Assembly (NCBI GenBank): GCA_022496205.1
Contig: WTXD01000018.1
Location: 186,001 to 250,000 of the forward strand
From: Gloeopeniophorella convolvens
Taxonomy: Eukaryota > Basidiomycota > Agaricomycetes > Russulales
Length of the DNA stretch: 64,000 nucleotides
Direction of reading: 5' to 3'
Shown: positions 14,712 to 57,290 of the stretch, piece by piece
Layout of the letters: each line of letters starts with the position of its first letter
Position numbering within the stretch: the stretch's first letter is position 1
Translations under genes and position numbers: made by a program
The notes under the pieces: model-generated
What the model saw: only the letters and a program-made list of their open reading frames with translations
Databases searched by the model: none
What the model was told of the DNA's origin: nothing

Positions 14712-15837
14712 CTATCGTGCGCCGGGTTTAGACTTTGCGTAGTCATCCCAGAGACGCCTCAGAGTGGACGCCATGTTTGATGGAACATCCAGGTCAAACT
14801 GCACAGTCCGCCCACTGAACGGATATTGGAGCAATTTTCCAGCCAGTGGGACTGCGGGTGTGAAGCCCAATCCAGTGCGACTCTCGACGGGTTCGTGCAG
14901 CTCAAGCACCCGTATGACAACAATGCGCTTCCCTGCATGCTCCGGCAGCGACGACGGTTCCAAACACACTGTCCCCGCACCTGGATTGACACGGAGAGGC
15001 AGTCTTGTCATCAGGACAAACGTGTCCTATGCGAAGGCACGACAACTCACCACGAGTGAAAGAATGTCGGGCAAGCGAGAACCAGAATTGCAGGTGGCGG
15101 ACATGACCGTGCGTGGACGTCCGCACCCGGATTCCTGGCATTGTTACAGAGAGAGGCATGTGAAAAGGCTGTCCAAAACGCGTGATTACAGGGCTGTGCT
15201 TGAATTTTCGGGGGTACGACTCCCATGCAGCGACCTGCTCTCGAGTGACAAGCCCGTCACGCAGCAACAGTTTCACGAGCCCTATGGTGGGGGCCCGTGG
15301 AAGTATTCCAGGCGCGATATGCCAAGGCATACCGCTACGAAGCAAGAGATCTTGGCCTGCTTCGAACGCGCCTTCAGGTGTCGCCACGATACGGAAGCGG
15401 ACTTGGCCACCCTCTGCGAGCTCCGGATCATGCGCGTAGTACAGAAAGCCGCGCGCATCAGAGGGGAACGGTAATTTTGAGCTGCGACCCTCCACTTCAT
15501 AGCGCAGACCGATCTTGGGCGCTTCATATGAGCCGCGAGGCACAGTCCAGATCCCAACAGTAGAATAGTTGGAGAGGTCGATGAAATCAGAAGGCTGGAG
15601 GCGCTCTGGATCTAGTGTGCTGATTTGCTTCCGGGAAGTGTGCCCTTTTGGGCGGGGGCGTGTTGAAGGTGACGACGGTGACGGTTGTGAAGATGTGGAT
15701 GTGGGTCGCGACGGGAGGTATATGCACGGGCTAGCGCAGCGAAGGTACCGTTTTCGGGGGAGGGGTGCTGTCCGGTTGAAGGAGGATGAGAGACAAGCCA
15801 GAGACGGGCGATGCCATATTCGGGTAAGATGGGACAT
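14712..15837 (-). CDS. Gene B: unrecognised basidiomycete family, source-type copy of dispersed fragments
   Basis: Two exons (15837-15051, 14980-14712) give 351 aa. The N-terminus is Ser/Pro/Arg-rich. The core has QISTLDPERLQPSDFI, GFLYYAHD, AEGGQVRFRIVATPEG, GMPWHIAPG, LLLRDGLVTREQVAAWE and, after the intron, VCLEPSSLPEHAGKRIVV. The frame is fully open. It is the only complete copy of a sequence whose 5' part (about the first 107 codons plus upstream DNA) recurs at 24.6, 41.5, 49.7 and partly 9.8 kb. Function is unknown. The start at 15837 is supported because it is the ATG retained in the 24.9- and 41.5-kb fragments. Confidence 0.75.
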
Positions 15838-15989
15838 AGCCGGATGAAAAGATGTTGTATGCGAGTTGGGATGTGCGTCGGCGCGTCGAGGGATGTGCCA
15901 GTGCTGGGAAGCGCGAATCCAGCTCAGCGGGCGACGGTTTCTCCGAAACCTCGTGACCGCAACTTTGAGCCACGGCCCTCGCTTCGACA

Positions 15990-16760
15990 AATCACCCAGC
16001 GCACTCCTGTCATCTACCCTCAGCTACTTATGCACAATCGTGCAAGTTGGAGACGAATCGATGCAGGGCTGGGATTGAAGTATGCACGTATGAAACGCCA
16101 CTCCTTCAAGTAGAGGGGTGGGCGCAGGTCCGTGCGCAGGAGGTCAACCGTGGAGCCGCTCACAGTGGCGTCGGAATAGAAAGGTTCGTTACGAAAATAT
16201 CACTGGGACATTGCAGAGTACTGAGGTATACTTTCGTCTTCGTCGCCCGGATCAGTAAATAAAAGGCTCATTCACCAGTCTGTGCTCTCACCCTACGCCT
16301 TGACACTCCGTCTGAACGTATAGGCACCCAACGACCGTGGTACCCGGCAGCCCCTGCTGTACTGTCGGACGCGAGCGGGCATGCGAAGACATGTAACCAT
16401 ATCTGAAAAAGATGTCTCGCACCTACCCGGCAACCTTTGACGATACGGTCGGCCAACGTTTGGCGCGCAAGCAAGCTCAAGGGTTCACCCAGTCAAATCA
16501 CCCAGAAGCTTGGCCTCTGACTCACGGCCCACCCATTGCAGCTGACGCAGTATCATGTTCCGGTGCTTCGCCGCCCCCGGCTCTGGTGTCGCTCAGCGCT
16601 CAGCGAGTAAGCGTCTCTGGGCAGACCGCGCAGATTTTCTGGGCCCAACGGGCTTACAGGTGTACCTTGCAACATCCCATCCCAGGCAGCTACGCCCGCC
16701 TCTGAAGATACAAAGCTCCTTCTCGGAAGCATGTCCCTCCCTAGTAGACATGGTGTCATC
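15990..16760 (-). repeat. Repeat R, copy next to gene B
   Basis: This noncoding block upstream of gene B recurs, by eye, at 40255-41320 and 49000-49530 on the plus strand and in part at 26309-26425 and 57195-57290. Shared landmarks are CACTCCTTCAAGTAGAGG, GTACTGAGGTATA and the AGCGAGTAAGCGTCT end. It contains the presumed promoter of gene B. I see no transposase, and I could not define terminal repeats. Confidence 0.8.
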
Positions 16761-17249
16761 TCGCGCCGATTCCAATTCGCGGTCCGTCTTATTTCTGCCT
16801 TAATGAGGCTGGCGTTAATTGTCGTGTCTTCTGCTAGCCCGTACCTCTAAGCTTGGTGCAAGGTCACCGGATTGCGCGGCGTTGGAGGGTTCGCCCTTGT
16901 GACCTAGGCTGCCAACAAAACGCGCACCACATCACTATTTCCAGAACACATCACCACAACTTGACCGAAAGACGTTCTAGCGCGAAAAGTCGTAAGCCTA
17001 GGGGTGCGCAGTACTCGTACATACTACTTTGATATTGATCCACTCCCTCATGCCCTGCTATAGCTACGGAGACAGAAACACGAGCTGCGAGCGTCGGTTG
17101 TTAACTACTTCGGGGCGCAAATAGAGAAGCGATGTACAGTAAACTGCAGACACAGGCCTATGTAACATGTATGTTGTTCCACCACGGTGCTACTCGGCTG
17201 TCGTAGTCAGTATCATATCACAGGTGCCGCCGCACAGTGGGGATCTTAC
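16761..17249 (-). other. Conserved 3' flank of NLR1
   Basis: The roughly 490 bp beyond the NLR1 stop match the 3' flanks of NLR2 (48441-48960) and, more loosely, NLR3 (56793-57195). An example is the stretch around TTTCGGTC near 16970. No coding frame is conserved, so this is duplicated noncoding DNA, probably including the NLR 3' UTR. Confidence 0.75.
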
Positions 17250-20200
17250 CTAGTCTGAACGACTTGATTGCTTGTTCCTGCTCTCCTGGCGGGTGGCTCC
17301 AAGCTTGTACTTTGTACAGTGCTTGAGTAAACCCACAATAGCGGCGCGCCTCCGCTCATTCCAACGCATTGAAAGGAAATTACTGGCTTCCGCCGCTTCG
17401 AGAGCAGTGCCGTGCTTCTCGCTTCTTATACTTGTGTCTGCACCATGCTCGAGAAGGAGTCTTACAATGCCCGCATTCCCAATGTATGATGCCCATATCA
17501 ACGCCGTCCCGTACTTGCCACCCTGAATGTTGACATCGGCGCCGCGTGCTAGCAGTAACTGAATGACGTCGAGCTTGCCTCTCGCCAACCCTGCCCGGAG
17601 CGTAGAGCCGTACTTGCCGCCCTGGATATTGACATCGGCGCCGCGGTCTAGCAGGAGCTGGACGACGCCAAGCTTGCCTCCCGCCGACGCTGCCTGGAGC
17701 GCAGAGCCGTAGTTGCCGCCCGCGATGTTGACATCGGCGCCGTGATCTAGCAGCAGTTTGACGACGTCGAGCTCGCCTTCCGCCGATGCTGCCTGGAGCG
17801 CAGAACCGTACTCTCTACCCCAGATGTTGACGTTGGCGCCGCGGTCTAGCAGGAGCTCGACGACGCCGAGCTCGCCTTTCGCCGACGCTGCATGGAGCGC
17901 AGAGCCATACTTGCCGCCCTGGATGTTGACATTGGCGCCGCGGTCTAGCAGCAGCTTGACGACGTCGAGACAGCCTTCCGCCGATGCTGCCTGAAGCGCG
18001 GAGCCGTACTTGCCGCCTTCGATGTTGACATCGGCGCTGCAATCTAGCAGGAGCTTGACGACGTCGAGCTTGCCTTCCGCCGATGCTGCCTGGAGCGCAG
18101 AACCGTACTCTCTACCCCAGATGTTGACGTTGGCGCCGCGGTCTAGCAGGAGCTCGACGACGCCGAGCTCGCCTTTCGCCGACGCTGCATGGAGCGCAGA
18201 GCCATACTTGCCGCCCTGGATGTTGACATTGGCGCCGCGGTCTAGCAGCAGCGTGACGACGTTGAGCTTGCCCTTCGCCGACGCTGCCTGGAATGCAGAG
18301 CCGTACATGCCGCCCTGGATGTTGACATCGGTGCCGCGATCTAGTAGCAGCTTGACGACGTCGAGCCAGCCTTCCGCCGACGCTGTGTGGAGCGCAGAGC
18401 TGTACTTGCCGCCCCCAATGCTGACATCGGCGCCACAATCTAGTAGCAGCGCGATGACGTCGAGACGGCCTTCCGCCGATGCTGCCTGGAGCGCAGAGCC
18501 ATACTTGCCGCCCTGGATGTTGACATTGGCGCCGCGGTCTAGCAGCAGCTTGACGACGTCGAGACAGCCTTCCGCCGATGCTGCCTGAAGCGCGGAGCCG
18601 TACTTGCCGCCTTCGATGTTGACATCGGCGCTGCAATCTAGCAGGAGCTTGACGACGTCGAGCTTGCCTTCCGCCGATGCTGCCTGAAGCGCAGAACCGT
18701 ACATGCCGCCCCGGGTGTTGACACCGGCGCCGCGGTCTAGCAGCAGCTTGACGATGTCGAGCTTGCCTCTCGCCGCCGCTGCCTGGAGCGCGGAGCCGTA
18801 CTTGCCGCCCATGATGTTGATATCGGCGCCGTAGTCTAGCAGCAGCTGGGCGATGTCGGGCTCGCCGACTCCCGCCAACGCTGCCTGGAGTGCACTCCCG
18901 TACTCGCCGCCCGAAGTGTCGATGTCTGCCCCACGGCCAAGGAGCACTCGTACAGTCTCGACGTGACCTTGGAGTGACGCCACAGAGAGTGCCGTCCCTG
19001 CTTCACCTCCGTCCGCATTGATGTCTTGAAGCTCTTGTGCAAGTAGATGATCGAGAAGCCGGTGAAGACCAAGGTGTGCAGCGCAGTATAGAGTGGTTTT
19101 TGCATTGCTGAGTGGTACCAAAAAACTCTGCCAGAAATGTCTGCGTTTGGCTAGCCAGCTTGCGAGGTAGGGCTTGTCCGGATTGAGCATGAGCACGATG
19201 GCATCTAAAATTGCCGAGGACACGCTCTCGAACTGTGCATGTTTGACCCAATAAGTGGCAGCGTACTCAACAAGGGGGCGGTCGCGGACGCCTTCTGTAC
19301 CATCGGCGTTTCCTTGGGACTGAAATAGGATGCCTAGGCATGACTTCGCTAGGACCGTATGAGAGGGCTCCGGGAAGGCGCGGAAACGGGAGATCTGAGG
19401 CCTTGAATTCACGATGCCTTCGGATATCAAAAACTCTTTGACCGAGAAGTGCGTGAATTGTACCCCAGCTCTGTCGCTACGATAGCGGGAATTGACAATG
19501 TGGATGAAACTTCCAGGACATATGGATAGAATGGCACTTTCTGGGTCATCCGACCGCCAATCTCCGCGGTAGGCCGGGACGTCCCTGCTAAGGTCGACTG
19601 CAAGGATCTCCGCAAGCTCCTCCACATCAAGTGGACGCTGTGAGAATGATAGGCATTGGAAAATCCGATGGGCGTGCTCCCACTTCTCCTCGCTGATCCG
19701 CCCCAGCGTCGACTCGTACGTCGCATAAAGAGTACTAGGGAGTGCACTGAGAGTAGAATGGATCTTCGCTGGCGGACATTCGCATAGCGTCTCGAGTTGG
19801 CAGGATACGTATCGGAACCTGCGCATGGATGGATTAATCTTAGCTCAACAATTCCGGATGAGTACTGACATTCCATCCGCCTTGCTCGATAACGCTTCGA
19901 TGACCTCTTCTTTCGTGGTCTGTCCCCAACCCTGCATCTTCTCGTGAGACTCGATGGTCGACCGGATCATCCGCATGATATCCTTTCGATGCTCCTGCCG
20001 CTCCTCAAGGACCACTCGCTGAGATGCCAACGCCCGTAGGACTCGGCTGATGTCCTCCTCAGGACGACTCGTAACACAGATCCGCAAGTTCGGGAGCCCA
20101 AAGTCGATGAGGTCCTTCACGAGACCCAGGGTCTTCCTGCGCGAGGACGATAGACCATAGTTCGGCATTTCGTCCAGCGCATCTACGACGATGTACTGAG

Positions 20201-21726
20201 TGCCACCTGACTGTATGACCATCTCCTTCAAGCACCGCGCGAGGTCATCGTCTGTGGGGTCCCGTGAACCATTTTCGTGTTTCGAGTAGAGCTCGCGGAG
20301 CAGATTGTCGGATGCATCCGATTGGGTGGAGAGGCCCACTAGCAAGGAGCCGAGAAGACTACGGTAGACTTGCTTTTGAGTGTCCCGGAAATCGCAGTAG
20401 AAGTATGCGAGTGCAGCTTGGGATCCGCCAGAACGCAGTGATTCCAAATCGTTGATGACCGTGGAGCTAGTAATCGCGTTAGAGAAGAAACAGGCGGCCA
20501 CATGTTCAAATTATAACCTACCAGTGTACGGTTTTCCCCGCTCCCGCTTCAGATCGAACAAGTCAATTTCACTCGAGAAGCTTTACGCAATGGGGACGTA
20601 CGCTTGCCAGTGATCCAGAGTAGTGCGCCCCCTCTCCTCCAAGCCTCGTATAGGTCGCCGTGGACAAGCCACATGGACGTATCGGAGTGACGCGCGTCCG
20701 ACGCAATGACTTGATTGGTGGAACAGTTTGGGACAGAGAGCCACTTTCGGTACCGCCCTGCTTGCTGAGTACCTTCAGGGATACGTGAGACGGTATGGTT
20801 GCGTAAATAGAAAAAGAGAAACATACGCTCTTGCCTTTCTTGCTCACGCTTGACTATGACGATGTCGCGAGCCGCCAGCACAGTGACCATGAGATTCTCC
20901 TCCTTGGTGAGGCGATCCAATTTCCGCAGTGCGTCACCGATATCGTCGTCCCCAGATAGCGCCGCAACGCTCTTCTTGAAGCGGCGTTTTGCCTTGGCTA
21001 CCGTGCTACCTTGAGCTGCAGCGAATACCCACGAGAGCGGGCGAACTCACGTATCCAGCCATTTATGGAACCAATCCTTTGTGAAATGATCGCGAGGGTG
21101 CGAATCAACTCGATCAGAATGTCTACTACGATCTTCGTCATCTTGTCGTCGAACATGATATCCCCTGGGGCCACCAGGACCTCGAGACGTTCAAGGCAAT
21201 TTGCCATTTGTTGGAACCATTGCAATAATGCTTCATGGTTCTTCACATGGTTATCCGGAACCTATGGACGTGGTCAGCAAGCCACGATGTCAGAGATGGC
21301 GACAGAAAGGATGGTGATGATGATACGTACCGCAAGGATGATACCGATCCCGCCGAAAATCGCTTCCCCAGGTTTGAATCCCTGAGATGATCTCGGTAAA
21401 CGTCTAAACATTGTTGATTTCATGCATAAACTCACAAGTCCGGTCGCCTTTCCCGCAGTGTCACAGAGCGGACGAATCACTCTAGCGATTGGGGCGATCC
21501 TCTCAGATAGCCGTGCCTTCCAACTAGCTCTATGTTCCTCATCTATCTCCTCCGCTTGTTTCCGAAGCAAAGCAGTAACCTCGTCTGGGGACACGCAATC
21601 GCTGAGCTGAGCGACGAGCGCGTGGGCAGTCGGATCCTCCCCCGTCTTCTTCTTGTACTCCTTCAAGACCTCGGTAAACAGTTGTTGGTAGTGGGATGCG
21701 CTGGACGGCGCCTCGATAGTGGGCAT
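17250..21726 (-). CDS. NLR1: Goodbye-NACHT-ankyrin receptor
   Basis: Eight exons on the minus strand (21726-21436, 21381-21331, 21261-21051, 21009-20827, 20772-20602, 20546-20522, 20466-19870, 19818-17250) give 1365 aa. Residues 1-110 form a Goodbye-type helical domain (HYQQLFTEVLKEYKKKTG, ALLRKQAEEID, FGGIGIILA). The NACHT NTPase follows, with Walker A GKPGAGKT at about residues 301-308, Walker B VVDALDE, a sensor-like TSRPEEDI and the winged-helix region. From about residue 750 come some 17 ankyrin repeats plus a capping repeat. Proteins of this build are STAND-class receptors thought to oligomerise and trigger a response, often cell death, on sensing a ligand through the repeats. Several repeats are near-identical at the DNA level. 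All exon phases agree with NLR2 and NLR3. Confidence 0.92.
17500..18930 (-). repeat. Homogenised ankyrin-coding tandem repeats in NLR1
   Basis: The units are about 99 bp (33 codons), consensus GSALQAASAEGxLDVVKLLL followed by DRGADVNIQGGKY. Long blocks are nearly or fully identical: 17801-17942 with 18102-18243, and 17943-18111 with 18538-18706. Multi-repeat blocks have therefore been copied within the gene recently. Confidence 0.9.
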
Positions 21727-23000: not shown

Positions 23001-23439
23001 GATGTGAGGCTTGCTATATGCGTACGTGTGCTGAACCATGGCTTCGACATTACTTGTAAGTAAGTAGACAGTGTCAATACGTCGCACACGCACCTATGTA
23101 TGTATAATGCACTGCTTTGCAGACTGCCATCAGATCACAGCGGCGCCCCTGTCCTTGTCCCGCACACGGCTGTACTGCATTACGCATCAAACCCAAGTAC
23201 CACAGCTACTGAGATCATCTCGCAGACCGCGAAGCGGGTAGCGCTCGGAAACCCAGAGTACACACGGAGAGCGAGGTGCGCATGGGAAGGGAGATAAAAG
23301 ATACGCAGTGCTGCTTTGCCCTATTTGCGCAGGTCAATATACGAAGAAAGTAACGTGCGGGGTGGGCGTAAAGGAGAAAACGTGGATCGAAGTTGGGCCA
23401 AGTAGGTAGGAGTAAGTGAGGGGCGTGGCGGGCAGCCCA

Positions 23440-24250
23440 CGCACTCCGCCACACCTCTGCGACATGCCACGTAAGCTCCATCAACCCGCTCATCTTGTCG
23501 CCTGCGGCGTCCGCCGCCAGGTACGCCGTCGCCTGCGGCGCCGACACCGCCGCGGCGCTGCCGCTCGCCCGCGCGGGCGCGAGCATCGCCGGCGGGAGCG
23601 GCAGCAGCGCCCCGACGAGCCGGTCCGCGCGGTGCGCGACGAGGAACACGTGCAGCGGCGCAAACGCCTCGGCCTGAGGCACGACGAGCGGCATCGCGGG
23701 GAGCGCGAGCGTGCCGCCGGGGCGCGGCTGCGCGTGCGAGACGGAGAGGCGCAGGATGTGCGTGCAGTGCGCGGGGAGCACGATGTGGTGTGTCGGGACG
23801 AGGAAGACGGCGTCCGAGACGGGGTGCTTGGATGACGGGCTCGAGTGCACGGCGAGGATGTGCGTTAGGGGCGCGGTGCCGTGCGCGGGGACGATGTCGA
23901 ATGATGGGGAGGCGCGCGGGCGAGCTACGGGGGCACTTTTGCGGCGTTGAGCGACGCCATGAGTCTGTGGGAGCGAGGACGCGTGTCAGCCCGCTGTGCA
24001 AAGGACAAATAATGTGTGTACACGCACTCTTCTCCACGCGCGTGGAGGCTCTGGCGGATGTATCCAAAAAGGTACCTGTCCGACGTTGGGCTCCACGGCG
24101 AGGATCGCGTCGCACTGCACCTCGACGAACGCGGGGCGGTTGAGGGCGCGGACCAGCTGGAGGTAGGGAAAGGGCATAGCAGGTTTGCTAGTGCTTGCAT
24201 ATGTCGTAAGGCTGCTGCTGCGAGGCAGAGCGTGTGGCGACTTGGAACGT
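23440..24250 (-). pseudogene. Clp1-like copy 1 (broken)
   Basis: This is a paralogue of the intact copy at 37994. The start codon is ACG at 24250 instead of ATG. Exon 1 ends at 24028, the intron is kept, and exon 2 begins at 23964. A CAG-to-TAG nonsense codon (23927-23925) falls eleven codons into the LMASLNAAKVPP segment, followed by a small deletion. The C-terminal GVFDRDLWAALDW part is missing: the sequence jumps over about 400 bp into the conserved 3' flank (23215-23440). The remaining frame from HSSPSSKHPVSDAVFL to LMELTWHVAEVW is still readable. Confidence 0.85.
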
Positions 24251-24554: not shown

Positions 24555-24872
24555 GTCTTGGGCGCTTCATATGAGCTGCGAGGCGCGGTTCAGAGATCGA
24601 CAGTATAGCGGGTGGGGACACCGATGAAATCAGAAGACCGGAAGCGATCCGGGTCGAGGGTGTTGAGGTGCTTCCAGGCGCAGAGCTCCGGGGGACGTGG
24701 TGCAGGTGATGACGGTGATGGCAGTGAAGATATGGTTGTGGGATACAAGGCGGGATATGTACGGGCTAGCGCGGGGGAGGGACCATGTTCGGGGAAAGGG
24801 TGTTGTCTGGTTGAAGAAGGATGGGGAAGACGCCGGAGACAGGCGGTGCCATATTTGAGGAAAACGAGACAT
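24555..24872 (-). pseudogene. Gene-B 5' fragment C
   Basis: From ATG 24872 (MSRFPQIWHRLSPA) it follows the first ~107 codons of gene B with a frameshift near the TSPGALR segment. It ends at the point corresponding to GSYEAPK, where it joins DNA upstream of Clp1-like copy 1. The same junction occurs in fragments D and E. Confidence 0.8.
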
Positions 24873-25047
24873 AGCAGAATGAAAGGGTGTTATACGCGGG
24901 TTGATTGATCAGGATGTGTGCATCGGCGCGTCGAAGGACGAGCCAATGCTGGTGAATCCGGCAACGGCTTCTTCGAAGCCCCGTGACCCCAACGCGCACG
25001 CGGCCACTGTAACACACCGCCTATCACTGATTTACCCTCAGCTACTT

Positions 25048-26308
25048 AAGTTACTCGAGAAGGGCCGCCCGCGGCGGCAGGTGCCGTTGCTTGCAAATCC
25101 GCTTGTGATTGTGTTCCTGTTGACTTATGTGCACGTTGATTAGCACCAGTTGTCGTGTTTATACTATTGATCTTGCTGGTCTGTGTGCGTGGTGCGCTGC
25201 CGCGCATGGTACTGGTTGACAACGATGTCTTATTTTGATAAGCTATGTACATAGAGTACAATCTGAACACTATGCATAAGTTGCGCGCCAGTCCTGTGTC
25301 AGCACGGTACAGTGATATAGGTGGTGTGCACTGGCGTGCCGTCGCCAGCACTGGGGCTCGAGTTGTCGGCGTAGCCACGCTCGTCACGGTGCGGCAGCAG
25401 CGCATATTGGGGTGCGGTCGTCGCTGCTTGGGCTCGCGAAGTCGGCCTCGCGCATTGCTCAACACCGTGCGGAAGGCTGCAGGTGCGGTGGCGTAGTAGC
25501 GGGGGCGGTGGGTTGGGTATGGTGTCGGTATTACCGGCCTCGTTCAAGGAAGTGAGGCTGCCCCCTGATAAGTGCGGCGGAGAAGTGGAACGGCGCACGT
25601 TGGCGCGTCGCGTCACGTCGCGGCCGTGTCGCTGCGCGGGGGAGCCTTCGGCGCGGGCGCAGTTAGGTTGCCTTGTTCCGGGACGACATTGTGCGATGGG
25701 GGCCGTGGCGTTGTGGAGAACTGAAGGGCCAGCTTGGGCCAGCACGATAAGGGGGCGCGGGTACCCCGTTCATCTATAGAACCGTGCGTCGGTGACTGCA
25801 CTTCGAGGCACGCGCCGTTGCGCCATGTCGCCGTTGCGTCGCGCCGCAAATGTTGCCGCGCCCGTGCGCCGAGACCGTTGTGTTTCGGCACCGAGTCGTG
25901 TGAGGCGAGTCATAGTGGCGTTATGGCGCACTGTGCATCTGGAAGTTCGGGGAGGGAGGGCAAGGGCTCTGCACTGTTTTGGTCTCCTCATCTAGTCAAC
26001 TTGACTATCCGTCTACAACCTGCAAGTCTTCATTGATAGGTTGCATCAGGGCACTAGTGGGGTGATGGGGAAGCACACAAGAGAGGTAAGTTGTTTTCTG
26101 GTGTAAACGATGACTCCTAACAGAGGTTACAGAGTACAGAAAGGAAGGGCGGCAGCAGGGACGTCGGGGCGGGGGAGTCTCAACGAAGAAGTATAGGGTC
26201 GTCATCTTACATAAAGTGTGAGTGATGGGAGGTTTTGCCTGTAAAAGGAAAAAACCACTAGGCGCCCGAGGCAATTATGGGGGGGAGAAGCATCTTGCAA
26301 GCAAGGCA
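25048..26308. mobile_element. 1.26-kb insertion splitting a gene-B/R copy
   Basis: The gene-B upstream sequence breaks after CTCAGCTACTTA at 25047 and resumes with TGCACAACCGCGCAAG at 26310, where the undisturbed copies are continuous. The inserted DNA has overlapping minus-strand frames (25299-25745, 25046-25465) with no family I recognise. The 10-mer TTGCTTGCAA occurs near one end (25087) and inverted near the other. No clear target duplication or transposase is seen, so the class is unknown. Confidence 0.5.
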
Positions 26309-41507: not shown

Positions 41508-41800
41508 ATGTCTCATTTTCCCCGCATATGGCACCACCTGTCTCCGGCGCCTCTCCCATCGTTCTCCAACCAGGCAACACCCTTCCCCTGAACATGGTCC
41601 CTCCTCCGCGCTAGCCCGTACATATTCCACATCCATATCCTCACTGCCATCACCGTTATCACCTGCATCATGTCCCCCAGAGCTCTACGCCCGGAAGAAT
41701 ATCAGCACGCTCGATCTAGACTACATCCAGCCTTCTGATTTCATCAACCTCCACCCGCTATACTGTCGGTCTCTAGACTACGCATCGCGGCTCATGATGC
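41508..41800 (+). pseudogene. Gene-B 5' fragment D
   Basis: ATG 41508 opens MSHFPRIWHHLSPAPLPSF and then meets a stop after about 28 codons, where gene B is open. The homologous frame continues to the position of GSYEAPK and then joins Clp1-like upstream DNA near 41800. Confidence 0.8.
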
Positions 41801-42052
41801 GCACAAGACTTGTTCGCGATGGCGCTTATGTGCGTACTTGTTGGGGGTGGCGACGCAACATCCCTCCGTGTTGTGGGACATGACGAACATCCAAAAGTGC
41901 GCGGTGTGCACCCACCTTCGTTGTTCCCCTTCCAACCGGTGCCCTTTCCGTCCTATTCGTTCATTACATCAACCATCGTCGCGTGTTCCTCCTCTTTGCT
42001 CAGGACGCGTCACTTTCCATATCATCCCCAACACATCACCACCTTGCATATC

Positions 42053-43658: not shown

Positions 43659-46600
43659 ATGCCCGCTACCGAGACGCCGAGTGCATCCCACTACCAACAG
43701 CTTTTTACCGAGGTCTTGAAGGAGTACAAGAAGAAGACGGGGAAAGATCCGACTGTCCATGCGCTCGTCGCTCAGCTCAGCAATTGCGTGACCCCAGACG
43801 AGGTTACTGCTTTGCTTCGGAAACAAGCGGAGGAGGTAGACGAGGCGCATAGAGCTAGTTGGAGGGCGCAACTATTCGAAGGGATCGCACCGATCGCCAG
43901 AGTGATTCGTCCGCTCTGTGACACGGCGGGAAAGGCGGCCGGACTCGTGAGTTTATGCATGAAATTAGTCATATTTAGACGTTTACCGAGATCACCTCAG
44001 GCCTTCCAACCCGGAGAAGTGATTTTCGGCGGGATCGGTATCATCCTTGCGGTGCGTATCATCATCGGTATTTTTTATATCGGCGTTTCTGATAACGCGA
44101 CTTACTGATCGCATCCATAGGTTCCGGATAATCATGTAAAGAACCACCAAGCGTTACTGCAATGGTTCGAACAAATGGGGCGCTGCCTTGAACGCCTCCA
44201 GATCCTGACAGCTCCAGGGGATTTCATGTCTGACAAGCCGACTCTGACAAGGGTCGTAGTGGACATATTGATGGAGTTGATCCGCATCCTCGCAATTGTT
44301 TCACAAAAGATTAGTGCCATTGGCGGCTTGATACGTGAGTTTGTCCGCTCTCGCCAATGTTGGTTGTGACTCAAGGTCGCACTACAGCCAGGGCAAAGCG
44401 CCGTTTCAAGAGGGGCATCGCGGCGCTGTTTGGGGACAATGATATCGATGATGCACTGCGGAAATTGGATCGGCTTGCCACGGAGGAGAATCGCATGGTC
44501 ACGGCGTTGACGAGCCGCGACATTGCCATAGTCAAGCGCGAACAACAAAGGCAAGAGCGTATGTTTCTCTTTCCTACTTACGTAATCACAGTACCGTCTG
44601 ACGCGCCGGGTCTGAAGGTTTGCAGCAAGCAGAGCGGTACCGGCGGTGGCTCTCTATTCCAAACTGCTCCACCAACCAAGCAGTTGCATCGAAAGCACGC
44701 TACTCCGGTACATCCATGTGGCTTGTCCGTGGAAGTCTATACGAGTCTTGGAGGAGAGAGGGTACGCTACTCTGGATCACTGGCAAGCGTACGTCCCCAT
44801 TGTGTAACACTTGAGTGAAATTGACTCGTTCAATCCGAAGCGGGAGCGGGGAAAACCGTACACTGGTAGGCTGTCCTTTGGACATGTGGCTGCGTACCTC
44901 TTTTCTAACGTGAACATCAGCTCCTCGGTCATCGCCGATTTGGAGTCAGTGCATTCCGGCGGATCTCAGCCTGCACTCGCGTACTTCTACTGCGATTTTC
45001 GGGACACTCAAAAGCAATCATACCGAAATCTTCTTGCTTCCCTACTTGTAGACCTCTCCACCCAGTCGGATGCATCCAGCAATATGCTTCGCGAGCTCTA
45101 CTCAAAACATGGAAACGGCACACGGGACCCCACAGACGATGACCTTGCGCGGTGCTTGAAGGAGATAGTCATACATTCAGGTGGCACTCAGTACATCGTC
45201 GTGGATGCGTTGGACGAAATGCCGAACTATGGTCTATCATCCTCGCGCGGGGAGACCCTGGGGCTCATGAAGGATCTCATCGGCTTGAGGCTCCCGGACT
45301 TGCGGATCTGTGTCACGAGTCGTCCTGAAGAAGACATCATCCGAGTCCTACGGATGTTGTCGTCTCAGCGAGTGGTCCTCGAGGAGCAACAGGAGCATCG
45401 GGACGATATCACGTGGATGATCCGTTCGATCATCGAGTCTCACGAGAAGATGCAAGGATGGGGAGAGACTATGAAAGAAGAGGCCATCGAAGCGTTGTCG
45501 AGCAAGGCAGATGGAATGTCAGTACTCATCCGTAATTGTTGAGCCAAGATTGACTGATCCACGCGCAGGTTTCGATACGTGTCCTGCCAACTTGAGACGC
45601 TAAGCGAATGTCCCCCAGCGAAGATCCATTCTACTCTCAGTGCACTTCCCAGCACTCTCTATGCGACGTACGAGTCCACACTGGGGCGGATCAGCGAGGA
45701 GAAGTGGGACCACGCCCACCGGATCTTCCAATGCCTCTCATTCTCACGCCGCCCACTCAAGGTGGAGGAGCTTGCGGAGATCCTTGCAATCGACCTCAGC
45801 GAGGACATCCCGACCCACCGCGGAGATTGGCGGTCGAACAACGCAGAAAGCGCCATTCTATCGATATGTCCTGGAAGTTTCATTCAGATCGTCAACCCCA
45901 TCTATCATTATGAAAGGGCCCGGGTCCAATTCACACACTTTTCGGTCAAAGAGTTTTTGACATCCAAGGACATCGTGAATACAAGGCCTCAGATCGCTCG
46001 TTTCCGCGTCCTCCCGGAGCCCTCTCATACGGTCCTGGCAAAATCATGCCTAGGCGTCCTATTTCAGCCTCTGGGAAATGCCAATGGTACAGAAGGCATC
46101 CGCAGCCGCCCCTTTGCCATGTACGCTGCCACTTATTGGGTCGGACATGCACGGTTCGAGAGCGCGTCCTCGCCAATTCTAGACGCCATCAAGCTTATGC
46201 TCAATCCGGCCAAACCCTATCTCGCAGGCTGGCGCTCGTTGACCGAGCACTACACACGGTCCGGATATTCGTGGTATCGCAGTTTGGTACTACCCAGTGA
46301 TGCAAGGACCACTCTGTACTGTGTTGCGCACCTTGGTCTTCACCGGCTTTTCGACCATCTACCTGCACCAGAGCTTCGAGATATCAATGCGAACGGTGGT
46401 GAAGCAGGAACTGCACTCTCTGCAGCGTCACTCCAAGGTCACGTTGAAGTTGTACGGGAGCTCCTTCGCCGTGGCTCCGACGTCAATACTCGGAGCGGCA
46501 AGTACGGAAGTGCGCTCTACGCAGCATCAGCGGAAGGCGCACTCGAGGTTGTCAAGCTGCTTCTAGACCACGGCGCTGATGTCAACATCGAGGGCGGCGA

Positions 46601-48440
46601 GCACAGGACTGCACTCCAGGCAGCGTTGATGGAAGGCAGGCTCGACGTCATCAAGCTACTGCTAGATCGCGGCGCCGATATCAACGTGCCAGGTCACGAG
46701 TATGGGACGGTGTTCCACACAGCGGCAATACGAGGCATGCTTGACGTCGTCGGGCTGCTGCTAGACCGCGGTACAGATGTCAACACCCAGGGCGGCGAGT
46801 ACGGCACTGCCCTTCTGGCAGCGTCGGCAGGAGGCAAGACCGACATCGTCAAGCTTCTGCTGGACCGCGGCGCCGATGTCAACACCCAGGGCGGCGACCA
46901 CGGGACTGCACTCTACGTGGCGTCAGTGAAAAGCAAGCTCGATGTTGTCAAGCTTCTGCTAGACCGCGGCGCCAATGTCAACATTCGGGGCGGCAATCAC
47001 GAAACTGCGCTCCAGGCAGCGTTGATGGAAGACAGGCTCGACGTCGCCCAGCTACTGCTAGATCACGGTGCTGATGTCAACATACCAAATCGCGAGGATG
47101 GGAATATGCTCCACGTAGTGTCGATGCGAGGCAGGCTTGACGGCGTCAAGCTGCTCCTAGACCGCGGCATCGATGTCAACACCCAGGCGGGCAAGTACGG
47201 CACTGCGCTCCAGGCAGCGTCTGCGGGAGGCAAGACTGACGTCGTCAAGCTTCTGCTGGACCGCGGCGCCGATGTCAACACCCATGGCGGCGTCCACGGG
47301 ACTGCACTCTACGCAGCGTCAGTGAAAAGCAAATTCGATGTTGTCAAGCTTCTGCTTGACCGCGGCGCCGATGTCAACATCCAGAGCGGCGAGTACGGCA
47401 CTGCGCTCCAGGCAGCCTCGGCGGGAGGCAAGACCGACATCGTCAAGCTTCTGCTGGACCGCGGTGCCGGTCTCAACTATCGCGGGGACGGGAATATGCT
47501 CCACATAGCGTCAATGGAAGGCAGGCTTGACACCGTCAGGCTGCTGCTAGACTGCGGCACCGATCCCAACATACAGGACGGCGAGTATGGGACCGCACTC
47601 CAGGCAGCGTTGGTGCGAGGCAGGCTCAAAGTCGTCGAACTTCTGCTGGACCGCGGCGCCGATGCCAACATCCAGGGCAGCGGGTACTACAAGACTGCAC
47701 TCTATGAAGCGTTGATGGAAGGCAGGCTCGACGCCGCCAAGCTACTGCTTGATCACGGTGCCGACGTCAATGTACCGAATCGCGAGCACGGGAATGTGCT
47801 TCACATAGCGTCGATGCGAGGCATGCTTAACGTCGTCAAGCTGCTCCTAGACTGCGGCACTAGTGCCAACATCCGGGGCGGCAGGTACGGCACTGCGCTC
47901 CAGGCAGCCTCGGTTGAAGGCGAGCTCGACGTCGTCCAACTACTGCTACACCGCGGCGCCCATGTCAACATCCAGGGCGGCGAGTACGGAACTGCGCTCT
48001 ACGCAGCGTCAATGCGAGGCAGGCTCGGTATCGCCAAGCTGCTGCTAGACCACGGAGCCGACGTCAACGTCCAGTGTGGCGAGTCGGGGACTGCGCTCCA
48101 TGCAGCGGCGCTACACAACAGACTTGATGTCGTGAAGCTGTTACTGAACCGCGGTGCCGACATCAACGTTCAGGGCGGAGAGTATAGGACAGCGTTGATA
48201 GGGACATCGTTCAGAGGGGATGTGGGCGTTGTAAGACACCTTCTAAAATGCGGTGCAGACGCAAGTATAAGGAGCGAGGAGTACGGTACCGCTCTGGAAG
48301 CAGCGAAAGCCAGCAACTGGGGGATGAGTGAGCAGAAGCGCGCCGCCATCGTAGATTTACTCTCAAGCACTGTACGAACTACACGTTCAAAACCACGCGC
48401 CAAGAGATCAGGACCAAGCAACTCACGTCCTTCAGATTAG
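43659..48440 (+). CDS. NLR2: Goodbye-NACHT-ankyrin receptor
   Basis: Eight exons (43659-43946, 44001-44051, 44121-44334, 44376-44558, 44618-44788, 44841-44865, 44921-45517, 45569-48440) give 1466 aa, with all phases matching NLR1 and NLR3. The Goodbye-type domain (SHYQQLFTEVLKEYKKKTGK) is followed by a helical linker and the NACHT module. This has GKPGAGKT at about residues 301-308, YFYCDFRD, Walker B VVDALDE and TSRPEEDI. About 20 ankyrin repeats follow from residue ~755. The repeats are more diverse than in NLR1. Types alternate, for example TALQAASAGGKTDIVKLLLD with TALYAASVKSKFDVVKLLLD. One repeat (GLNYRGDGNMLH) has lost a few residues in frame. It is likely a cytosolic STAND sensor. Ligand and output are unknown. 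Confidence 0.93.
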
Positions 48441-48999: not shown

Positions 49000-49530
49000 C
49001 AACACCGTAAGCCTGTCGGGTGCCCCCAGACGTTTACTCGCTGAGCAAGGGGCGACAGTAGAGCCGGGGACGGAGAAACGTCGGAACAGGGTACTACCTC
49101 ATATAAGGATTCGACCGTCTATCCCAGGCATGATCTAGGATGGACAAATATCCACACGGCGCGAAGGGCAGTGGTGGAACGCACAGTGGACAACTCGTAT
49201 TACCAGCCCTCTGTATTCCCCGGCCACATCAGTCGAAGTGTCAGGGCGTAGCCGGGTGAGAGCACAGACCGGTGAAAGAGTCAGCTTACGAATCCAGGCG
49301 ACGAAGACAAGAATAATATACACCTCAGTACTCTGCAATTTCCTAGTGACATTTTCGCAATGGACCTTTTCATTCCGATGCCGTGATTATGAGCGTCTCC
49401 TTGTTGGCTCCCTGGGCATGGACCCGCGCTCAACACTCCCCTCGTGGCTCCGGACTCTGCATACGTGCATACTTCAACTTCAACCTTACATCGGTTCATC
49501 TCCAACTTGTGCGATTGTGCATGAATAGCT
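49000..49530 (+). repeat. Repeat R, copy in module 3
   Basis: This is a shorter, colinear copy of 40255-41320, sharing TTTACTCGCTGAGC, CACCTCAGTACTCTG and GACCTTTTCATTC. Confidence 0.8.
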
Positions 49531-49733
49531 GAGGGAAGATGACAGGTGTGCGCTGAGTAGTTTAATTTGAGGGCCGTGGCTCAAGCGTTCATTGCGGTCA
49601 CGGGGTTTCGGAGAAACCGTTGCACGCTGTGGATTCGCGCTTCTCACTGGCAACACTGGCACGTCCACGTCAGCTTCGACGCACCAATGCACATCCTGAT
49701 CATCAACTTGCATATAACACCCTTTGATTCTGC

Positions 49734-50005
49734 TTTGTCTCATTTTCCCCGAATATGACACCGCCTGTCTCCACACGTCCTTCCCCCGAACATGGGCCCT
49801 CCCCCGCGCTAGCCCGTACATATTCCACATCCATATCTTCACTGCCATCACCGTCATCACCTGCACCACGTCCCCCAGAGCACTACACCCGGAAGCACCT
49901 CAACACTCTCGACCCGGACCGCTTCCAGCCTTCTGATCTCATCGGCCTCTCCCCTCGCTATACTGCTGGTCCCTGAACTGCGCCTCGCAACCCATATGAA
50001 GCGCC
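49734..50005 (+). pseudogene. Gene-B 5' fragment E
   Basis: The start codon is TTG at 49734 where D has ATG. The homologous frame reads SSLPSPSSPAPRPPEHYTRK and LNTLDPDRFQPSDLIGL, ends at CATATGAAGCGCCCGAGA, and joins Clp1-like upstream DNA exactly as in fragment C. Confidence 0.8.
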
Positions 50006-50330
50006 CGAGAATTTTTGCAATGCTTTCTTCAGCGGTTCGCGCCGTTCGCAACCCACCACGAAGGAGGCACGGCGCGACGATTTGGAGGAGTCGCTTGCGT
50101 GCGTAGTACTAGCGCTGGGGATGGCGCCGCAATATTTCTCCATGGCATGAGACATGAAGAACACCCAAAAGCGCGCAACGTGCACCTGCCCTCGTCGTTC
50201 CCCTTCCAGCCCGCTCCCTCTCCATCCTATTCGTTCCTTACATTTAAGCGTCACCACCTGCTCCTCCTCTCTCTGCTCAGGGAGCATTCACTTCTCATAT
50301 CATATCCTCGGTACGACCGCCTTACACACC

Positions 50331-51251
50331 ACGTTCCACGTCGTCACACGCTCTACTTCGCAGGAGCAGCCTTACGATACGTGCAAGCATTAGCATGCTG
50401 CTACGCTCTTCCCCTGCCTCCAGCTGACCTGCACCCTCAACCGCCCCGCGTTCGTCGAGGTGCAGTACGACGCGATCCTCGCCGTGGAGCCCAACGTCGG
50501 ACAGGTCCCTTTCGAATACATCCGCGAGGGCCTCCACGCGCGTGGAGAAGAGTGCGTGTACACACACATTATTTGTCCTTTGCGCAGCGGGCTGACACGC
50601 GTCCTTGCTCCCACAGACTCATGGCGTCGCTCAAAACCCTCGCAGCTCCCGTGCCCGCGCCTCCCCGCATCATTCGACATCATGCCCACCCATGGCACCG
50701 CGCCCCCCGCCGCACATCCTCGCCGTGCACTCCAGCCCTTCGTCCAAGCACCCCGTCCCGGACGCCGCCTTCCTCGTCCCGACGCACCACATCGTGCTCG
50801 CGGCGCACTGCGCCCACATCCCGCGCCTCCCCGTCTCGCACGCGCAGCCGCGCCCCGGCGGCGCACTCGCGCTCCCCGCGGTGCCGCTCGTCATGCCGAG
50901 GCTGAAACGTTCGTGCCGCTGCACGCGTTCCTCGTCGCGCACTGCGCGAGCCGGCTCGTCGGGGTGTTGCTGCCGCTCCCGCCCGCGATGCTTGTACCTG
51001 CGCGGGTGAGCGGCAGCGCCGCGGCGGGCTCGCTCTCGGCGCTGTCGGCGTTGTAGACGGCGGCGTACCTCGCGGCGGACGCGGCGGGCAGCAAGATGAG
51101 CGCGCTGATGGCGCTCACGCGGCATGTCACGGGCGTGTGGCGGAATGCGTGCGCGCTCGGCGTGTTTGACCGGGATCTGTGGGCTGCGCTCGACTGGACG
51201 TGGGAGGTGCTGCTTGGCGCGATGAACATGGTCGCGGCGGGCACCCACTGA
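50331..51251 (+). pseudogene. Clp1-like copy 4 (broken mosaic)
   Basis: The start codon is ACG at 50331, as in copy 1. Exon 1 ends at 50551 and exon 2 starts at 50617. A deletion in the LMASLN segment shifts the frame. A further two-base loss in the PLVVPQAEAF region (MPRLKRSC here) shifts it again. A TAG at about 51054 interrupts SALSAL. From about 51090 on it is almost identical to intact copy 2 (WRNACALGVFDRDLWAALDW). The 5' half, including the intron, is closest to copy 1. Confidence 0.87.
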
Positions 51252-52008: not shown

Positions 52009-52010
52009 TA

Positions 52011-52708
52011 CTATGCCTAACCGGGAAGTGGACACCACCAGGAAGTGGTTATTTTGCAAAGATAGACTCCGCACGCAGCAACGGCTGCATAGAATTCGCC
52101 GATATTTTTATCCAATGAGTTCATATATCCGTTCTACATGCTTGCGAAGTTTGAAGCCGATTGAGCTGCTGGATGATGCTAGAGAAATCGGTACTTCTGG
52201 GACACTGATGTGGACAGCTGCCAATCCTCTAAGAACGAGGGAAAAAATAGCTTATACACCATGAAACTTGGCATTCACAGCACACTTATACATATCCACT
52301 GCATTCCCAAGTTTTGTATCATTCACATGGGTAGAACACCATCTGCGAGAGCTTTCCCTCCGGAGGGGCTCTAAGCGTGACAGAGGAGATTAAAGCTCCG
52401 CTGCCGGAGCGCGTGAACAACGCGTTGCGCGAGTGTGCATCAGTGGGTTCTGGTCCATGATAAGATTGAATCTATGATCCCGGCAAGCGTGACAATCCGT
52501 GACAAGCGCGCACTCCTTGCGGGCACTTTTCTCTCGACTTCGGCTTTGCTCTGGCACGCTCAGATCTCAACGAATAAATCTAAAACTTGATAGGTACATA
52601 GAAAACATATCAAGGAATATATATGCGAAGTTTCAAGAGATTTGGTTAAGGAAAACCCCAAGATTACCAGGAAGTGAACATTTGTGTCCACTTCCCGGGT
52701 AGGCATAG
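52011..52708. mobile_element. Nonautonomous Tc1/mariner-type element (MITE) upstream of NLR3
   Basis: The left end CTATGCCTAACCGGGAAGTG (52011) is matched on the other strand from 52708 by CTATGCCTACCCGGGAAGTG. Both continue with GACAC, giving 25 or so near-identical terminal bases. Both ends are flanked by TA (52009-52010, 52709-52710), the Tc1/mariner target duplication. A CAGGAAGTG motif also recurs just inside both ends. The 698-bp interior encodes no transposase. It ends 187 bp before the NLR3 ATG. Confidence 0.87.
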
Positions 52709-52895
52709 TATTGAGAGCGCGAACTTGCAGTGTATTACGTAAAGCATGTCACCCGTCTCGAATGAAGGCCGCTTGAAAGTTGAAAGACTAAAGACTGGCC
52801 TCCGAATGGGAGGCCCTATAGTACGTAGCACTGGCGCCACCCCGAGGCCCAACTCATTCCAGCCCATTCCGACTCCCCTCCCACAGAACGGCTCC

Positions 52896-55800
52896 ATGTC
52901 TGCTACCGTGGCATCCGGCGCGTCCGGTTATCAACAACTATTTACTGAGGTCTTGAAGGAGTACAAGAAGAGGACAGGAAAGGATCCCACGGGCCATGCG
53001 CTCGTCGCTCAGCTTCGCGATTGCGTGTCCCCGGACGATGTCACTGCTTTGCTTCGGAAACAAGCGGAAGAGATAGATGAAGCGCATAGAGCTAGTTGGA
53101 GGGGGCAGCTATCTGAGAGGATTGCACCGATCGCCAGAGTGATCCGTCCACTCTGCGATGCGGCGGGCAAGGCGGCCGGACTTGTGCGTCCACGCATATC
53201 GATGGTCTCTAGATGCTCGCTGAGATTACCTTAGGGATTCAAACCTGGAGAAGCGATTTTCGGCGGGATCGGCATCATTCTTGCGGTGCGTGTCGTCATC
53301 GTCATCCCTTCTATCAGCGTTTCTGACGCCCCGGCTTGCTGATTATGTCCCTAGGTTCCGGAGAACCATGTGAAGAACCATCGAGCACTGTTGCAGTGGT
53401 TTGAACAAATGGGACGTTGCCTTAGACGCCTCGAGATCCTTATAGTTCCAGGGGATGTTTTATTCGACGACACGATGACAGAGATCGTAGTGGGTATTTT
53501 GATGGAGTTGATTCGCATACTCGCGATCCTTTCGCAGAAGATTGGTATCATCGATGGTTGGATACGTGAGTTCGCTCGTTCTCGCGGACATTAGCTGTAG
53601 CTCAAGGCAGCACGATAGCCAAGGCAAAGCGCCGCTTCAAGAAGGGCATTGCGGCGTTATCCGGGGACGACGACATTGGTAATGCACTGCGGAAATTGGA
53701 TCGCCTCACCAAGGAGGAGAATCTCATGGTCACGGCGTTAGCGAGTCGCGACATCGCCATAGTCAAGCGTGAGCAAGAAAGGCAAGAGCGTATGTTTCCA
53801 TTCTTCCACATATAAAGCATTCCGCCTGACGTACCTCTGAAGGCATGCAGCAGGCAGGGCGGTACCGAACGTGGCTTTCTGTTCCAAACTGTTCTACAAA
53901 TCAAGTCATTGCGTCGGAAGCACGCCACTCCGACACGTCCATGTGGCTTGTCCGCGGCGACCTATACGAAGCTTGGAGGAGAGGGGGCGCACTACTCTGG
54001 ATCACTGGCAAGCGTATGTCCCATTGCGTGGAGCTTCTCGAATGGAATTGACTTGTTTTATCCGAAGCGGGAGCAGGGAAAACTGTACACTGGTAGGCCG
54101 TGCTTTGAACATGTAGCCGCCTGTTTCCTCTCTAACGTGATCACTAGCTCCACTGTCATCAACGATTTGGAGTCACTGCTGCGTTGCGGCGGATCTCAAG
54201 CTGCACTCGCGTACTTCTACTGCGATTTCCGGGACACTCAAAAGCAATCCTATCGCAGTCTTCTTTCTTCTTTGCTGGTAGATCTCTCCACCCAATCAGA
54301 TGCATCCGACAATATGCTTCGCGAGCTCTATTCGAAACACGGAGATGGTTCGCGGGACCCCACAGACGACGATCTCGCGCAGTGTTTGAAGGGGATGCTC
54401 AGACAGTCAGGTGGTACTCAGTACATTGTCGTGGATGCGTTAGACGAAATGCCGAACTATGGTCTATCGTCCTCACGCAGGAAGACCCTGGGGCTCGTGA
54501 AGGACCTCATCGACTTGGGGCTCCCGGACTTGCGGATCTGTGTTACGAGTCGTCCTGAGGAGGACATCAGCCGAGTCCTACGGACATTGGCGTCTCAGCG
54601 AGTGGTCCTCGAGGAGCAGCAGGAGCATCGGGACGATATCACTCGGATGATCCGGTCGGTCATCGAGTCTCACGAGAAGATGCAAGGATGGGCAGAGGCT
54701 ATGAAGGAAGAGGCCATCGAAGCGTTGTCGAGCAAGGCAGATGGAATGTCAGTGGTCGTGCGGAATTGTTGAATCAGGATTGACTCGGTGCATGCGCAGG
54801 TTCCGATATGTGTCCTGCCAACTCGAGACGCTATGCGAATGTCCCCCAGCGAAGATCCATTCTACTCTCGGCGCACTCCCCAGTACTCTCTATGCGACTT
54901 ACGAGTCGACGCTGGGGCGGATCAGCGAGGAGAAGTGGGAGCACGCCCATCGGATATTCCAATGCCTATCGTTCTCATGGCGTCCACTTGGCGTGGAGGA
55001 GCTTGCGGATATCCTTGCAATCGACCTCAGAGAGGACATCCCGGCCTACCGCAGAGATTGGCGGTCGGAAAATCCAGAAAGCGCCATTCTATCCACATGT
55101 CCTGGAAGTTTCATTCAAATCGTCAACCCCGAAGATCATCATGAACGAGCTCGGGTTCAATTCACGCACTTCTCGGTCAAGGAGTTTTTGATATTCAAAG
55201 ACATCGTGAATCCAAGGCCTCAGATCTCTCGTTTCCACGTCCTCCCAGAGTCCTCTCACGCGGTCCTGGCGAAGTCATGCCTAGGCATCCTACTCCAGCC
55301 CCTGGGGAACGCCAATGGTGCAGAAGGCATCCGCAACCGCCCCTTTGCCATGTATGCTGCCACTTATTGGGTCGGACATGCACGGTTCGAGAGCGCGTCC
55401 TCCCCAATTCTGGATGCCATCGGGCTCATGCTCAACCCGGCCCAACCCTACCTCGTAGGGTGGCGCTCGTTAACCGAGCGCTACACACGATCCGGATCTT
55501 CTTGGTACCGCAGTTTGGTACTACCCAGTGATGCAAGGACCACTCTGTACTGTGTTGCATTCCTTGGTCTTCATCGGCTTTTCGATCATCTGCCTGCACT
55601 AGAGCTTCAAGACATTAATGCGATCGGCGGTGAAGCAGGAACTGCACTCTCTGCGGCGTCGCTCCAAGGTCACTTTGAGGCTGTACAAGAGCTCCTTGGC
55701 CGTGGCGCTGACATCAACGCTCGAGGCGGCAAGTACGGGAGTGCGCTCTACGCAGCATCGGTGGAAGGCAATCTCGACGTCGCCAAGCTTCTCCTAGACC

Positions 55801-56792
55801 ACGGCGCCTATGTCAACGTTCAGGGCGGCAGGTACGGAACTGCGCTCCAGGCAGCCTCGGTGGAAGGCAAGCCCGACACCGTTAAGCTGCTGCTGGATCG
55901 CGGCGCCGATGTCAACATCCAGGGGGGCGAATATGGGACTGCGCTCTACGCGGCGTCGATGCGACGCAGTCTTGATGTCGTCAAGCTACTGCTGGATCAC
56001 GGCGCCGACGTCAACTTGCCGGGTCGCGAGTACGGGACTGTGCTCCACACAGTATCGATGCGAGGCAGGCTTGACGTCGTCAAACTGCTGCTAGACCGCG
56101 GCACCGATGTCAACATCCAGGGCGGCGAGTACAGGACCGCGCTCCAGGCAGCCTCGGTGGAAGGAAAGCTCGACATCATCAAGCTGCTGCTAGACCGCGG
56201 CGCCGATGTCAATATCCAGGGCGGCGAGTACGGGACTGCGCTCTGCGCAGCGTCGGCGGAAGGCAGGCCCGACATTGTCAAGCTACTACTAGATCGCGGC
56301 GCCGATGTCACCGTGCCGGGTCGCGAGTATGGGACTGTGCTCCACATAGCATCGATGCGAGGCAGGCTTGACGTCGTCAAATTGCTGCTAGACCGCGGCA
56401 CCAACGTCAATATCCAGGGCGACGAGTACGGGACCGCGCTCCATGCAGCGGCGCTGAGCAGCGGGCTTGGTGCCGTGAAGCTGTTATTGGACCACGGTGC
56501 CGACGTCAATGTCCAGGGCGGCAAGTACAGGACAGCGTTGATAGGGGCATCGCACGAGGGCAATGTGGGCGTCGTGAGACTCCTTCTCGACCGTGGTGCA
56601 GACACAAGTATAAGAAGCGAGAAGTACGGCACTGCTCTGGAAGCAGCGAAAGCCAGTGATCGCCCTCGGATGCGTTGGGATGAGCGGAGGCGCGCCGCCA
56701 TTTTAGGGTTACTCTCAAACACCGTACGAACTGCAAGCGGGGCCACTCACCGGCGGGAGAGCGGAACCAATCAACCAAGTCTTCCAGACTAG
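52896..56792 (+). CDS. NLR3: Goodbye-NACHT-ankyrin receptor
   Basis: Eight exons (52896-53183, 53235-53285, 53355-53565, 53607-53789, 53843-54013, 54068-54092, 54148-54747, 54800-56792) give 1173 aa, with the same phases as NLR1 and NLR2. The Goodbye-type domain (GYQQLFTEVLKEYKKRTGKD), GKPGAGKT, VVDALDE and TSRPEEDI are all present. About 11 ankyrin repeats plus a cap start near residue 755, the shortest array of the three. Repeats come in larger period-3 sets (TALQAASVEGK, TALxAASMRR, TVLHxxSMRGRLDVV), as if a three-repeat unit had been duplicated. The ATG is chosen by alignment with NLR1 and NLR2. An in-frame ATG at 52746 would add 50 residues but lies 38 bp from the transposon end. Confidence 0.93.
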
Positions 56793-57290
56793 GTGAGGGC
56801 CCCCTATGCGGTACCCGGGATATGGTGCTGACTGCGACGGCCGAGTAGCACCGTGGTGGAATGATACGTGCTAGGCCCCGCGTTTGCAGATGACTGCATA
56901 TCGTGAGCTCAGTAGGTAACAGCCAACGCTCGCAGCCGGTGTTCTCGTCTCCATAGCTGTAGCACGGAACGAGGAAGTGAACCGGCGCCAAAGTAGTATG
57001 TACGGGTACTATGCACTCCTGGGCTTACGATGCTTCGCACCAAAAGGTCTTTCGGTCGAGTTAGGATGACATTTCTGGAGAATGTGATGTGATGCGAGTT
57101 TTGTCGGCAGCGCGTCGCGCCACGTACTAGACACTGCTGGAATCACAAGCACGAACCACTCAGCACCGCGCGATCTGTTGGCCTTGCACCAAGCTTACTG
57201 GCTTTCCATACGTGCATACTTTAGTCTCAGGCCTTGCATCATTCGTTTCCAACATGCGCCGTCGTGCATAAGTAACTGAGAGAGGTGCGC
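56793..57290 (+). other. NLR3 3' flank plus remnant of repeat R
   Basis: 56793-57195 resembles the 3' flanks of the other NLRs (TTTCGGTCGAG near 57050). 57195-57290 matches the gene-B-proximal end of repeat R (CCATACGTGCATACTT, GTGCATAAGTAACTGAG). The island ends here. Confidence 0.7.

Follow-up and report, generated by a model that had tools for sequence, protein, structure and literature searches.

Introduction

Fungal NLRs of the type described here are nucleotide-switched sensors of non-self, with an N-terminal domain for signalling and ankyrin repeats that vary. In one published definition, a fungal NLR cluster is a group in which consecutive NLRs lie <40 kb and fewer than eight non-NLR genes apart (PMC12258605), and in the work of Dyrka et al. 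(2014, PMC4986451) high internal conservation refers to repeats with >85% identity along a stretch of 100 aa or more. The Clp1 (clampless) gene of Coprinopsis, as described in PMC10100773, acts downstream of the HD mating genes; members of the family are defined by a requirement in clamp formation. Among the papers listed in our literature search, none linked clp1 with NLRs in its title or abstract, which is no proof of absence.

Here we describe a 64,000-base window (bases 186001–250000 of contig C90, which is 517,015 bases in length) of the Gloeopeniophorella convolvens assembly (36.7 Mb, 404 contigs), in which NLR genes are repeated together with Clp1-like genes, a stretch termed R, and a gene termed B. 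It is likely, with a probability of roughly 0.83, that this is a birth-and-death array of NLRs, which arose when a unit of the order Clp1-NLR-R-B was duplicated in tandem and in which the hitchhiking Clp1-like and B copies died. The order of the array is that of the assembled contig and refers to one assembly of one strain.

Organization of the repeated modules

Three repeated modules were recovered by self-BLAST, in the order and the two orientations that an earlier note on this DNA had proposed: M1 on the minus strand (26.4–16.6 kb), and M2 (40.3–49.0 kb) and M3 (49.0–57.3 kb) on the plus strand. Read along one strand, M1 consists of a Clp1-like gene, a spacer, an NLR gene, the 3' flank of the NLR, R (the 5' flank of B), and gene B. 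In chained alignments, colinear chains cover 60 and 67% of M1 and M2, respectively (78.8% identity), 57 and 69% of M1 and M3 (80.7%), and 71 and 75% of M2 and M3 (79.1%), bearing out the colinearity across coding and noncoding DNA that had been claimed; no chain was found in either of two control comparisons (M1 against 27–37 kb and M2 against 1–9 kb of the window). The alternative that the coding parts alone are similar was contradicted by the self-comparison: the NLR 3' flank (16734..17249, minus strand, for NLR1; homologous flanks at 48441–48941 and 56793–57111), the R and B pieces, and the flanks of the Clp1-like genes all align between modules, and the seven NLR introns align between copies at 73.0–80.0%. 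The intact Clp1-like gene, Clp1-2, stands for a fourth unit; its 3' flank (39973–40087) matches the Clp1-NLR spacer of M1 (22982–22865) in self-BLAST, which is expected if Clp1-2 formerly preceded an NLR, and the unit now contains none.

The size differences between modules, previously attributed to two insertions, are largely explained in this way, but the Clp1-NLR spacer is also longer in M1. The first insert, a 702-bp element in M3 (52009..52710, plus strand) with 27-bp terminal inverted repeats, matches no fewer than 39 further genomic sites, including one at 100% identity (of 73 candidates, 40 were scored), and is probably a recently active miniature transposon. The second, a dispersed repeat of ~1.3 kb (25000..26300, minus strand), separates R from B fragment C in M1 as an insertion and has copies elsewhere that are up to 97% identical; a search of this interval for inverted ends found none. 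Both inserts are mobile DNA.

NLR genes

All three NLR genes yielded intact 8-exon models, namely NLR1 (17250..21726, minus strand; 1365 aa, 16 ankyrin units), NLR2 (43659..48440, plus strand; 1466 aa, 19 ankyrin units), and NLR3 (52896..56792, plus strand; 1173 aa, 10 ankyrin units). The exon borders were set manually in an alignment of the three copies and the structures are hence models; none of the three contains an internal stop or frameshift, splice positions correspond in all of them, and the last exon (2.0–2.9 kb) is a single open frame in each copy. A 25-nt micro-exon, again present in all three, carries most of what we take to be the Walker A motif; the loss of this motif, suspected from raw ORFs, was rejected as an artefact of missed introns. 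Consecutive NLRs are spaced by 21.9 and 4.5 kb, both below 40 kb, which corresponds to the distance part only of the published cluster definition.

The NACHT-type NPHP3_N domain was matched with 119.6 bits in NLR1 and 118.5 bits in NLR2 (cut-off 24.8), and with 76.7 bits in one exon of NLR3. PF05729 (NACHT) gave 32.0 for NLR2 and 26.5 for NLR1, the latter slightly below the cut-off of 26.7. An N-terminal Goodbye domain was found in both spliced models scanned (41.5 bits in NLR1 and 46.9 bits in NLR2; cut-off 24.8), and ankyrin families, i.e. C-terminal superstructure-forming repeats, were matched in all three genes. Non-self sensing by these NLRs is a putative function assigned from the family.

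In the non-ankyrin part, the NG86 dN/dS values were 0.31 (NLR1-NLR2), 0.27 (NLR1-NLR3), and 0.19 (NLR2-NLR3), and the YN00 values ranged from 0.28 to 0.42; judged from these ratios, the NLR copies are under purifying selection. The highest protein identity was that of the NLR2-NLR3 pair (83.4%). The ankyrin units are 80, 71, and 76% identical at the nucleotide level within NLR1, NLR2, and NLR3, respectively, and 72–74% identical between genes. Because the units of NLR1 are more alike than units of different genes, these values suggest that the NLR1 units have been homogenized within the gene, those of NLR3 little, and those of NLR2 not at all. At the amino acid level, the mean unit identities within the genes are 70, 57, and 66%, with some NLR1 units near-identical; the >85% cut-off of PMC4986451 lies above the mean of every NLR in the array, the per-repeat procedure published there being a different one.

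Contig C90, which makes up 1.4% of the assembly, holds 12 of the 95 genome matches to the NLR nucleotide-binding exon. At C90:112–122 kb (stretch C90:111000–129000), two related NLR copies lie in tandem; judged by tblastn, one appears to be largely intact, and the other is broken. A genome search with PF05729 gave 78 matches, with none on C90 among the matches listed, because the NLRs of the array split the domain over exons. Immediately to the right of the array, an open frame of 1080 aa that contains a CHAT domain (caspase-like protease) occupies 58799–62041 of the window. The region at 30001–32000 of the window has a G+C content of 75% and long open frames on both strands; the two frames scanned gave no Pfam match.

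Clp1-like genes

Clp1-2 (37994..38919, plus strand; exons 37994–38214 and 38274–38919; 288 aa) is the sole intact Clp1-like copy and lies between NLR1 and NLR2 with no NLR directly adjoining it. The other three copies are each located directly upstream of an NLR, and all three are decayed. Clp1-1 (23429..24248, minus strand) has two stops and about seven frameshifting indels and is missing its 3' end, Clp1-3 (42053..42860, plus strand) has about eight indels that shift the frame, among them deletions of 31 and 64, and Clp1-4 (50333..51251, plus strand) has two stops and three frameshifts, these indel counts varying with the alignment.

The homologs of Clp1-2 comprise 52 listed proteins with full-length homology, at least seven of which are called 'Clp1-like protein' by UniRef; close homologs are found in Russulales, and among the best 10 of the 52 matches those from Lactarius, Multifurca, Russula, and Artomyces are 69–85% identical. 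By name and homology, Clp1-2 would be a member of the Clp1 (clampless) family, and it is in this sense that the label given by the earlier note is retained. In a protein tree of 18 rows chosen from the 52, the four copies form a single clade (100/99), which joins Lactarius at 87/86 and within which copies 1 and 4 are grouped (86/78). The terminal branch is 0.013 for Clp1-2 and 0.50, 0.35, and 0.09 for Clp1-1, Clp1-3, and Clp1-4, respectively, the latter three being lengthened because the broken copies entered the tree as deposited models, parts of which are out of frame. Pairwise dN/dS values among the copies are 0.40–0.59; these lie below 1 and not at 1, which speaks against pure neutrality, and the copies may have decayed recently or in part. 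Gene models of 397, 229, and 162 aa have been deposited for the broken copies, so that altered products are possible. Three of the four deposited Clp1-like models on C90 are thus broken copies, which might otherwise be mistaken for an expansion of a sexual-development family.

A genome search for Clp1 gave seven matches, six on C90 within the window (the four copies) and one on C13. A blastn comparison of the 7-kb stretch around the C13 match with the window gave no match. C13 contains a second Clp1-like gene (L051 3347–4171, plus strand), which is 35% identical, and a further frame (L051 4928–5941, minus strand) that resembles a Clp1-like gene by eye only.

The layout in which a receptor gene travels with a sexual-development-like gene, to which the earlier note had drawn attention, is real, but the functional association that it implied is not supported. 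Were it functional, the array would be a supergene linking non-self recognition to sexual development: the receptor would guard or report on the sexual-development protein, e.g. with dikaryon formation coupled to non-self recognition, and the 3' end of Clp1-4 or the NLRs would control or guard Clp1-2. The NLRs are intact, and Clp1-2 is intact, conserved, and flanked at a distance by NLR1 and NLR2, as this explanation would have it. A functional NLR-partner pair would carry an intact partner, however, and all the Clp1 copies that adjoin NLRs are decayed, the intact copy being the one that is not directly beside an NLR; in addition, no Clp1 or B match was found beside the two related NLR copies at C90:112–122 kb. 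Genome searches with STE3 (23 matches: 22 on C350 and 1 on C267) and Homeobox_KN (3 matches: C365, C1, and C184) yielded none on C90, and mating-type linkage on this contig was rejected on these grounds. A functional NLR/Clp1 module is thus not supported, and we consider a supergene of this kind improbable: Clp1-2 is intact and central, yet nothing observed requires a role of the linkage in sexual development. If such a role were true, the copy number of the array, variable between strains, would affect dikaryon formation. The cluster of STE3 pheromone-receptor matches at ~615–756 kb of C350 is probably a mating locus.

It has also to be considered that the decayed copies act in trans, for instance by giving rise to small RNAs with a regulatory effect on Clp1-2. 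Clp1-2 and the 3' part of Clp1-4 are nearly identical (97.5–100% in three 200-column windows, compared with 79–87% upstream), the shared tract extending over ~38.75–39.35 kb with one gapped bin, and this near-identity is what favours such an action. However, gene conversion, from which we infer that the tract originated, accounts for it, and Clp1-1 and Clp1-3 differ from Clp1-2 by 11–22% across the aligned parts; action in trans therefore appears even a little less probable than the supergene.

R, gene B, and the module junction

The full copy of gene B (14902..15837, minus strand; start taken from homolog comparison, C-terminal end uncertain) is contiguous with its R (16030..16663, minus strand), which is its 5' flank. 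The modules contain B fragment C (24556..24993, minus strand; its R piece at 26309–26426), R with B fragment D (40262..41808, plus strand), and R with B fragment E (49021..50010, plus strand), all truncated at a shared breakpoint, and an R remnant follows NLR3 (57199..57279, plus strand). In every one of the three modules, the B homology breaks off at one and the same base (15513 of the full copy, at about residue 108), and homology to the DNA upstream of Clp1-2 resumes 75–149 bases past this breakpoint in every module. Such a junction fits a tandem duplication with breakpoints in B and upstream of the Clp1-like gene, and the one identical base strengthens the earlier conclusion of segmental duplication as opposed to convergent arrangement. 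B fragments C and E have a stop in the identical place, and fragment D retains a 21-aa match.

The B family is narrow. A genome search gave 23 matches at the exon level, of which C90 has 10 and C155 has 5, and there are only five proteins in a large protein database, three from G. convolvens and two distant ones from Mycena. A diverged paralog (47% identical) adjoins the full gene B (window 13754–14320, minus strand). Paralogs of B form a tandem array at C90:133000–141500 and on C155, a second contig being nearly identical, and an NLR 3'-flank remnant lies between the copies of the array. This remnant, which precedes the B copy near C90:137 kb, indicates that the NLR-B linkage is wider than the Clp1 linkage.

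The assembly does contain haplotigs and repeated DNA, from which a false array could have been joined. Haplotig pairs are 99.6–99.8% identical (n = 4 pairs), i.e. they show 0.2–0.4% differences, whereas the module copies diverge by ~14–29%, depending on the part compared, and have distinct lesions and inserts. Mis-joined haplotypes are therefore unlikely, and we rate an assembly artefact as highly improbable.

Least probable of all is the spread of the module by R as a mobile repeat: R sits at the module boundaries, but its genome matches are few (at least seven, five in the array and two upstream of a single B paralog, which lies at C90:139.4 kb, and of its haplotig) and it is contiguous with B, so that this candidate was rejected. 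The description of R as a repeat separate from B had likewise to be abandoned, R and the B fragment being one homologous stretch made up of the 5' flank and the N-terminal coding part of B.

Origin of the array

We infer that a birth-and-death process formed the array in the following way. A founding tandem duplication would have created the single junction, of which the B fragments would be the scar, and later units would have been added by unequal exchange. Placed on one strand, the series of units would run Clp1-2 (with its NLR lost), Clp1-3/NLR2, Clp1-4/NLR3, and Clp1-1/NLR1/full B. The last of these would have been moved by an inversion to the left side of an 11-kb stretch, and the NLR that followed Clp1-2 would have been lost. 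Clp1-2 and Clp1-4 presumably exchanged sequence through gene conversion, and the transposons would have been inserted into the modules after duplication. Selection would maintain the NLRs, with the Clp1-like and B copies as hitchhikers, and Clp1-2, from what is known of its family, may have a role of its own that is independent of the NLRs.

A stop at codon 21 is common to Clp1-1 and Clp1-4, so that the Clp1 copied beside live NLRs was probably already broken; the shared stop could alternatively be a product of gene conversion. The closest modules disagree, in that the Clp1 tree pairs copies 1 and 4 and the NLR identities pair NLR2 and NLR3. The modules would accordingly be mosaics or have exchanged parts, which fits exchange between copies but also leaves the model incomplete in this respect. 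Since there is overlap, and no complementarity, between the R piece at 26.3 kb and that at 57.2 kb, the break of the inversion is not placed by R. Within the same copies the NLRs are intact, their neighbours are decayed, and the junction is shared, which makes the selected gene distinguishable from the hitchhiker. In a mushroom-forming lineage, the locus offers a clear natural example of the birth and death of NLRs.

Comparison with known systems

Clp1-2 is linked to the Clp1 of Coprinopsis (PMC10100773) through its full-length homologs, several of which are named Clp1-like in UniRef; in contrast to the gene described there, three of the four G. convolvens copies are broken, and a function of Clp1-2 in clamp formation is putative. 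In plants, arrays such as those described in cacao (PMC12405883) also contain many NLR copies produced by local duplication, but they belong to another kingdom and have another receptor architecture.

Among fungi, the NLRs of the array share the domain types and their order, as well as a repeat region that varies between copies, with the Goodbye-NACHT-ankyrin NLRs described by Dyrka et al. (2014, PMC4986451). According to that description, WD40 repeats prevail in basidiomycete NLRs, whereas the G. convolvens array has ankyrin repeats. The NLR clusters described in Sordariales (PMC12258605) are similar to the array in that the NLRs are closely grouped and are thought to have been diversified by exchange. 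In that account, however, paralogous copies occurred in just 16 of 272 clusters and tandem duplication was doubted, whereas the array described here consists of tandem-duplicated paralogs, and tandem duplication is indicated as its builder. NLR clusters are thus of a known kind; the Clp1-like passenger is unusual.
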